A stretch of 33,723 bases of DNA, taken from positions 1-33,723 of the IMG/VR virus record IMGVR_UViG_3300008952_000167; one strand, written 5' to 3'. Each line of letters starts with the position of its first letter. The first letter of the stretch is position 1. The stretch comes from a virus. The notes below the pieces were generated by a model. That model had not been told where the DNA came from and searched no databases. It saw only the letters and a program-made list of their open reading frames with translations. Positions 1 through 556 of the stretch are shown one piece after another. A program made the position numbers and the translations under genes.

Positions 1-556
1 CTTCTATTTCTTTGATCATTCTTTCAAGATGTTCTTTATGTTCTTGCATTTTAGTGTCTTGCATATGATTGTAAGAATCTATATGTGCTAACATTTCATC
101 TTGCATTACATCCTTTTTTCTATTTTCGGCAATCATTTCATCTTGTTCTTCAGTTAATGATAGCAGCTCTCTTAATTTTCTTGATTGTTCTGCATCAGTA
201 TCATAATGTACTTTCTCGCTGATCATTTTTTCCAATTTAACGTTTGCTATTCCATCGTTTGGAATAAATCTCCATATATATCCACGACCATTAACAATTC
301 CAAAAATTGTTTGGGTTACTCCAATTTTAACTATGGTTGCTGGACAATCGTCCAGATATACCATATCTCCTTCTTGAAAATGTGGATCTAATTTGAAAGC
401 TAAACCGTGGGCCAAATTAGTAGCAAAGTCCTTGAACCACAAAAACACTACTACAGATATTAATATTCCAATCCATGGCAGGATTAAATCTGTCATTTCT
501 GGTATTAATACTGATAACTGTTGTGCTTGTTGTTCAAGAACTGCTGCTTCATCCAT
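1..556 (-). CDS. MscS-like membrane protein with coiled-coil tail (3' end beyond window)
   Basis: I translated this by eye from the ATG at 556; 185 codons are visible and the frame is open to the window edge. Residues about 22-45 form one hydrophobic membrane helix. Residues about 42-108 resemble the pore-lining helix and beta domain of MscS: the order of NLA-x-G, F-x-x-GD-x-V, a V-x-x-I-G turn, a T, a G and IPN-x-x-I matches E. coli MscS closely. Residues about 115-185 are charged, helical and probably coiled-coil. MscS normally has three membrane helices and a C-terminal vestibule; here only the pore helix and beta domain are recognisable. It is the last visible gene of the leftward tail block and its ATG overlaps the previous stop (TAATG), so it is probably translated with the baseplate genes. 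A role as a channel is inference. Confidence 0.75.
   Translation of the reverse strand, partial: MDEAAVLEQQAQQLSVLIPEMTDLILPWIGILISVVVFLWFKDFATNLAHGLAFKLDPHFQEGDMVYLDDCPATIVKIGVTQTIFGIVNGRGYIWRFIPNDGIANVKLEKMISEKVHYDTDAEQSRKLRELLSLTEEQDEMIAENRKKDVMQDEMLAHIDSYNHMQDTKMQEHKEHLERMIKEIE

Follow-up and report, generated by a model that had tools for sequence, protein, structure and literature searches.

Channels of the MscS type guard cells against bursting. Membership of the MscS superfamily is defined by homology to a segment of approximately 87–90 residues, which comprises the pore-lining helix and the upper vestibule (beta) domain (PMC4560390). TcMscS from Trypanosoma cruzi (PDB 9bgq, 9bgt, and 9bgu) was described as a minimal functional unit; it is without TM1 and the alpha/beta cage, still has TM2, and is still gated by tension (PMC12334622). 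Several viruses carry mechanosensitive channel genes, including the MscS proteins of the giant viruses Sylvanvirus and Aureococcus anophagefferens virus (PMC6163359) and a virus-borne MscL interpreted as osmoregulatory (PMC13288924). In the sea-ice Paraglaciecola phage PANV1, gp51 gives an HHpred match to MscS with a weak single-helix prediction, and no function was proposed for it (PMC9239159). None of these proteins has a tested role in the literature we found, and no phage role has been described there for an MscS-like protein, as the first-pass annotation of the DNA studied here had stated. Among lysis proteins, holins are divided into classes with three helices, with two helices (N-in/C-in), or with one helix (N-in/C-out) (PMC9636201). 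The pinholin S21-68 of the lambdoid phage phi21 dissipates the proton motive force through heptameric channels of ~2 nm, and the class III holin T of T4 carries a large periplasmic domain (PMC9636201). In the paper on the methylophage Melnitz, we found no holin annotation, and its authors propose that a curli pore takes the place of a pinholin (PMC9004378). Sequence comparison and structural models point to the protein reported here, c0, as a new and very small MscS-type protein that T4-like phages encode, with a putative function.

The window, which is the whole stretch analysed, is a 33.7-kb IMG/VR fragment (33,723 nucleotides), and all features described in it lie on the minus strand. The open reading frame of c0 (positions 2–556) is a real gene with a complete 5' end, and its 3' end runs off the window after 185 visible residues. 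The closest relatives end 0–17 residues beyond this point, so the window copy is missing a short tail at most, with the stop just outside the window. Directly upstream are the genes of a gp51-like baseplate hub assembly catalyst of 62 aa (556–744; phrog_634, 4.3e-26) and a gp26-like baseplate hub protein (747–1460; PF12322 T4_baseplate, 1.5e-69; phrog_150, 1.8e-75), and the same-direction upstream genes further include those of a tail-tube-type protein, a DNA end protector, and a head-completion protein. The stop codon of the gp51-like gene and the start codon of c0 overlap by one base in TAATG (554–558), the coupling to baseplate genes that the first-pass annotation had read from the sequence.

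Hydropathy analysis predicted one membrane helix in c0 (residues 23–41; 434–490), which aligns with TM3 of MscS and corresponds to its TM3a part. It is followed by the invariant pair K42-D43 (428–433; 44 of 44 aligned members) at the junction corresponding to TM3a/TM3b, by an MscS-type beta domain (residues 62–110; 227–373) with the invariant residues E62-G63-D64 and N100, and by a C-terminal coiled-coil helix (residues 121–184; 5–196), which replaces the alpha/beta cage of MscS. The AlphaFold model calculated with an alignment of 44 family members (A2) has a pLDDT of 90.9 and consists of a helix (residues 3–55), five strands (residues 65–68, 71–78, 82–89, 92–99, and 108–110), and the coiled-coil helix, with the strands and the coiled-coil helix common to both AlphaFold models of c0. 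The TM1-TM2 sensor paddle and the cytoplasmic alpha/beta cage of the E. coli protein (EcMscS) are absent. The architecture that the first-pass annotation had proposed, with a pore helix, a beta domain, and a coiled-coil tail, and with two of the three usual membrane helices missing, thus agrees with hydropathy, profile comparison, and modelling.

Comparison of the c0 profile (44 members) with 36 proteobacterial MscS TM3-beta segments by hhalign gave an E value of 7.3e-8 (probability 94.6%, score 48.6), collinear over ~75–84 columns from TM3 to the IPN motif. Among 400 shuffled decoys, the best score was 23.8 (mean 12.8, standard deviation 2.75; maxima of 22.4 for column-shuffled and 23.8 for segment-preserving decoys), and the reversed alignment scored 11.7. 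In the Foldseek search of the PDB with the c0 model, all of the best 50 matches were MscS-family chains (best E 2.1e-4). VIA comparison of the c0 models with EcMscS gave Z scores of ~9–10 over 87–89 residues (rmsd ~2.6–3.5 Å), where unrelated matches begin at Z 7.0–7.5. Profile comparison and fold search thus both returned MscS and not an unrelated protein. The sequence identity to EcMscS is ~18%, and the two proteins are homologous and in register between TM3 and the IPN motif. Other searches gave weaker results. The window c0 alone matched no Pfam family, its top PDB match was the MscS of H. pylori (E 0.24), and it scored 12.9 bits against PF00924, under the curated cut-off of 20.2, which is a detection threshold and lies outside the published superfamily definition. 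PF00924 was the only Pfam family matched by many c0 members (10 of 44, best E 6.4e-4). The hmmsearch of A2 against the PDB did not list MscS and placed an unrelated protein first (E 0.024), and hhalign of A2 against EcMscS alone was weak (E 0.008, probability 5%). The relation is therefore a distant one, since its signal is weak without a large MscS alignment and the window copy falls below the Pfam cut-off. Judged by profile and model, c0 belongs to the MscS superfamily, its homology covering the pore-lining helix and the beta domain of the published definition.

Relatives of c0 are encoded on at least 188 IMG/VR contigs (26 from a pattern search, extended to 188 by tblastn). The best 80 were fetched and yielded 77 distinct proteins and loci, a biased sample in which context counts are inflated by near-copies. 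Invariant residues in A2 (n = 44) include P27, K42-D43, G51, E62-G63-D64, I75, G79, F85-G86, W95, N100, K107, K110, H117, and D119. Of the motif residues by which the first-pass annotation had recognized MscS, GD and the asparagine of IPN are retained throughout, and the proline is replaced by Ala, Ser, or Gln in some relatives. The length of the coiled coil differs between members. The dN/dS values were 0.04–0.14 in 13 of 14 pairs, with dS saturated for the most distant ones, and the outlier of 0.31 is a near-identical pair; the window copy and its nearest relatives gave 0.05–0.09, also with saturated dS. From these sequence comparisons, the family is under strong purifying selection. The flank preceding the helix contains on average 0.45 Lys/Arg residues, versus 3.44 in the 20 residues after it, and this positive-inside bias predicts an N-out/C-in orientation for 76 of the 77 members, the same as that of TM3 in MscS. 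Each of 16 long contigs carries exactly one copy. The 342,607-base viral contig L039 has a single copy, the same gene as that on the 139-kb and 76-kb contigs L037 and L038; it may be a relative of far greater size or result from faulty assembly.

The carriers are uncultured T4-like phages, probably marine. The large terminase of one carrier (L057) is closest, among isolates, to those of Methylophilales phage Melnitz (73%) and Pelagibacter phage HTVC008M (70%), and such terminase relatives make marine heterotrophs the likely hosts. The isolates HTVC008M, Melnitz, Mosig, C48C1, and Syn19 have no c0, and the absence from HTVC008M, Melnitz, and Mosig indicates that c0 is dispensable for lysis in general. 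Searching 50,697 phage isolate records for the family returned nothing at E ≤ 1 except 36-bit matches in Bacillus phages, and EcMscS as query returned only host-like or unannotated short records. No relative was detected by the profile A1 search of cellular genome contigs. In BFVD, three viral proteins share the c0 fold, A0A516MLU7 (129 aa; E 2e-9, 32% identity), A0A1B1IQW5, and A0A516LVN0, none with a name or a studied role.

TcMscS resembles c0 in combining TM3 with a beta domain and in having no alpha/beta cage (VIA Z 7.3–9.2 to the phage models); it is a heptamer from a cellular eukaryote that keeps TM2 and an N-terminal helix, whereas c0 has TM3 alone and an added coiled coil. The giant-virus MscS proteins share the c0 fold and are longer (261–651 aa), with three helices predicted in that of Aureococcus anophagefferens virus, and PANV1 gp51 resembles c0 in its published description. 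The c0 family is the smallest MscS-type channel subunit that we found, with one pore helix and a beta ring, and is reduced below TcMscS, the smallest functional MscS that we found described; it poses the question whether TM3 and the beta ring alone suffice for an MscS pore. The nearest functional analogue of the putative c0 pore is S21-68, a small phage protein of the lysis phase, which differs in having two helices (N-in/C-in) and no beta domain and is not homologous. Like c0, the T4 holin T has one membrane helix and belongs to a T4-like phage, but its N-in/C-out orientation and periplasmic domain are opposite to the N-out/C-in orientation and cytoplasmic domain predicted for c0. With one helix in this orientation, c0 fits no known holin class.

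ATAAATA is the late-promoter motif of T4-like phages. In 24 of 77 loci, it was found no more than 60 nt upstream of c0, and in 24 of 30 loci, at the same distance from its frequent neighbour c1, compared with approximately 1.2 and 0.5 expected from a background of 0.016 per 60 nt. It is not present upstream of the window c0, which is carried by the coupled baseplate operon. The structural operon in the window and the motifs in the relatives both point to late production, in line with the earlier reading. At some starts, ATAAATA lies only 10–13 nt before the ATG and no ribosome-binding site is evident (c1 in L018, L019, L023, L025, L051, L066, L069, L094, and L102; c0 in L056, L075, L092, and L043), which suggests that the late mRNAs at these starts are leaderless.

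Analysis of the gene neighbourhoods revealed that c0 occupies many slots. An Rz-type spanin and/or an endolysin lies within six genes of c0 in 26 of the 77 loci (the window copy is not among them), where c0 is typically flanked by c1 and c2; neither is found within this distance in the other 51. These 51 comprise the gp26/gp51 slot (7 loci), the terminase slot, mostly between TerS and TerL (7), a lipase neighbour without c1 (5) or together with c1 (2), c2 alone beside c0 (3), c1 and c2 with no spanin in range at a contig edge (2), and other contexts (25). When a nearby lipase, c1, or c2 is counted along with spanins and endolysins, the association covers 38 of 77 loci. The spanin-labelled cluster c6 includes longer non-spanin members, which leave the spanin count unchanged, as each is either encoded on the other strand or adjacent to a true spanin. 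The loci in lysis cassettes belong mostly to one clade of the c0 tree, and the tree requires at least 19 changes of context; c0 therefore moves often. The first-pass annotation had linked c0 to gp26/gp51 and considered it as a part of the tail facing the membrane. The translational coupling in the window and the same slot in those 7 loci would fit a component of the tail or virion that faces the membrane or takes part in DNA entry. In other loci, however, c0 lies away from tail genes, in lysis, terminase, lipase, and unrelated slots; the position after gp51 in Mosig holds the unrelated c2, and Syn19 has just a 46-aa gene after gp26, followed by a very large gene. We regard this reading as highly improbable and rejected a general role of c0 in the tail or virion, since no more than 7 of the 77 loci show the gp26/gp51 slot; the baseplate link is local to some loci.

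In the main lysis lineage, virion protein genes are followed by an endolysin (GH19 or GH108), an i-spanin, an o-spanin lipoprotein, c1, c0, and c2, with DnaJ, peptide deformylase, and ClpA-like genes downstream of c2. The cassette proteins were identified as i-spanin (phrog_739, 1e-11), o-spanin (phrog_812, 3.5e-12), GH108 (PF05838, 5e-30), and GH19 (phrog_181, 2e-69), and additional o-spanins with lipoboxes occur near c0. The lysis-type association recurs in separate branches, with c1 and a lipase in L045 and L046, c2 in L040, L041, and L050, and a lipase in L090, L092, L093, L099, and L101; the c0-neighbour lipase belongs to PF01764 (4e-26). In the L041 genome, the spanin cassette holds c1 and a lipase, and c0 is paired with c2 elsewhere. 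Class 3 lipases (PF01764) beside c0 or within spanin cassettes (L046:6884–7651, L092:8398–9171, and L233:6542–7357) are possible phage lipases of the lysis step. An alanine-rich repetitive protein of 531–597 aa is inserted between c1 and c0 in some lysis cassettes (L055:6286–7878, L073:6100–7890, and L075:6113–7903).

The neighbours c1 and c2 are both small conserved membrane proteins and belong to no named holin family. The c1 family (80–145 aa; L052:7695–7976, L018:5689–5970, and L233:6292–6534) has one membrane helix, lies in or beside the lysis cassette, and has no match in isolated phages. The c2 family (80–130 aa, PHROG 10198; L055:8398–8745, L041:7726–7986, and L106:4968–5240 in Mosig) has a two-helix outline with GAGAAWFGLY in the second helix, and from its predicted topology it is a candidate holin, both for pelagiphages and for T5-like Vibrio phages. 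Pelagibacter phage Mosig carries c2 but no c0, with c2 placed exactly in the interval from gp51 to the small gene preceding the next large gene, and ~350 Vibrio phages likewise have c2 without c0. The c0 and c2 genes are neighbours in two different arrangements, and both are found on four of the five c0-bearing contigs of at least 115 kb, sometimes ~26–30 kb apart; this co-occurrence led us to reject c0 as a simple replacement of c2, at which the Mosig slot had hinted. Profile comparison detected no kinship of c1 or c2 to c0, and their origin as truncated c0 copies was rejected, the values obtained (E 0.007 across 28 columns; E 0.1 across 16) being in the range of shuffled decoys. By inspection, it is also unlikely that c2 represents TM1-TM2 split off from MscS, since the N-in/C-in hairpin predicted for it is oriented the wrong way.

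The computed results for c0 cover its homology and domain composition, its predicted topology and late-promoter motifs, the selection acting on it, and its synteny with spanin and endolysin genes; from these we infer its oligomer number, pore activity, gating, and part in lysis. We propose, with confidence near even, that c0 forms a pore in the inner membrane late in infection and serves the lysis phase by depolarising the membrane or controlling turgor. Like MscS, it would most likely assemble into a small ring-shaped pore of the host inner membrane, its N-terminus facing the periplasm and its beta ring and coiled coil lying on the cytoplasmic side. A small oligomeric pore is the natural inference, because the activity for which TM3 and the beta ring are best known is the pore that they form in MscS and TcMscS; with TM1-TM2 lost, the remaining helix may or may not form a pore. 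The role in the membrane step of lysis, one of those raised by the first-pass annotation, gains support from the gene neighbourhoods, in which c0 lies near a spanin and usually an endolysin, or beside a lipase, c1, or c2, and this lysis context is why a late role in depolarisation or turgor is favoured. In one lineage, c0 is encoded within the lysis cassette, between the one-helix c1 and the two-helix, holin-like c2. The cassette endolysins (169–282 aa) have no predicted membrane helix and would be cytoplasmic, in contrast to the SAR endolysin that pairs with S21-68. A pore of MscS size is too small to release them, so c0 is not a canonical holin and would more likely depolarise the membrane or regulate turgor around the firing of a large-hole holin, perhaps c2. 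Against a lysis-phase pore stand the 51 loci with neither spanin nor endolysin within six genes, the concentration of lysis-cassette loci in mostly one clade, the placement of c1 and c2 outside the named holin families, the lack of c0 in isolated relatives, the baseplate operon of the window copy, and the topology opposite to that of the T4-type holin. Tentatively, T4-like phages may have taken over the bacterial MscS core and stripped its tension-sensing paddle, obtaining a one-helix ring pore as a lysis trigger or timer in the inner membrane, a non-holin depolarisation encoded with endolysin and spanins. The absence of a holin annotation in the Melnitz paper (PMC9004378) leaves a gap for which c0, c1, and c2 are concrete candidates.

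The MscS homology is also consistent with an osmotic safety valve, in which late c0 vents solutes as host polymer degradation and phage synthesis raise turgor, preventing early bursting; it would thus prolong the productive period, protecting the cell instead of aiding its killing. In favour of a valve, tension still gates TcMscS, which likewise has neither TM1 nor the alpha/beta cage (PMC12334622), an osmoregulatory role has been ascribed to virus-borne MscL (PMC13288924), and c0 occupies many late-gene slots, as expected of a free-standing fitness gene. However, c0 lacks the TM1/TM2 paddle helices that sense tension in EcMscS, and a valve does not predict its recurrent placement by spanins, endolysins, lipases, and small membrane proteins. 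We consider this alternative, raised by the first-pass annotation as relief of host turgor, less likely than a lysis-phase pore. If the pore or the valve reading is true, c0 would represent a new lysis trigger or timer, or a virus-made pressure valve.

In a further reading, the MscS core would have lost its pore function. The single remaining helix, the bulky W40-F41 at the positions of A110-L111 in EcMscS, the variable length of the coiled coil, and the frequent neighbours c1 and c2 would suit a membrane-anchored scaffold or regulator that uses its beta ring and coiled coil to hold or inhibit a partner in an antiholin-like manner, the partner being c1, c2, or a spanin. The strong constraint on the beta-domain signature and the pore helix, together with the many c0 loci without an adjacent c1 or c2, argues against such a regulator, which we consider improbable.

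Two further gene arrangements were observed in these phages. In some genomes with c0 and c2, there is also a gene pair whose first member resembles a MotA/TolQ/ExbB proton channel (PF01618; 8e-8 in L231) and whose second encodes a one-helix protein at the ExbD position (L231:8773–9869, L232:2328–3412, and L234:9374–10458). The TerS-TerL slot holds varied cargo in related phages, namely an MscS-like protein, a dioxygenase with a tryptophan halogenase, or an F5/8-type C domain protein (L057, L072, and L087; L111:13198–15157 in HTVC008M; L112:25762–27795 in Melnitz).
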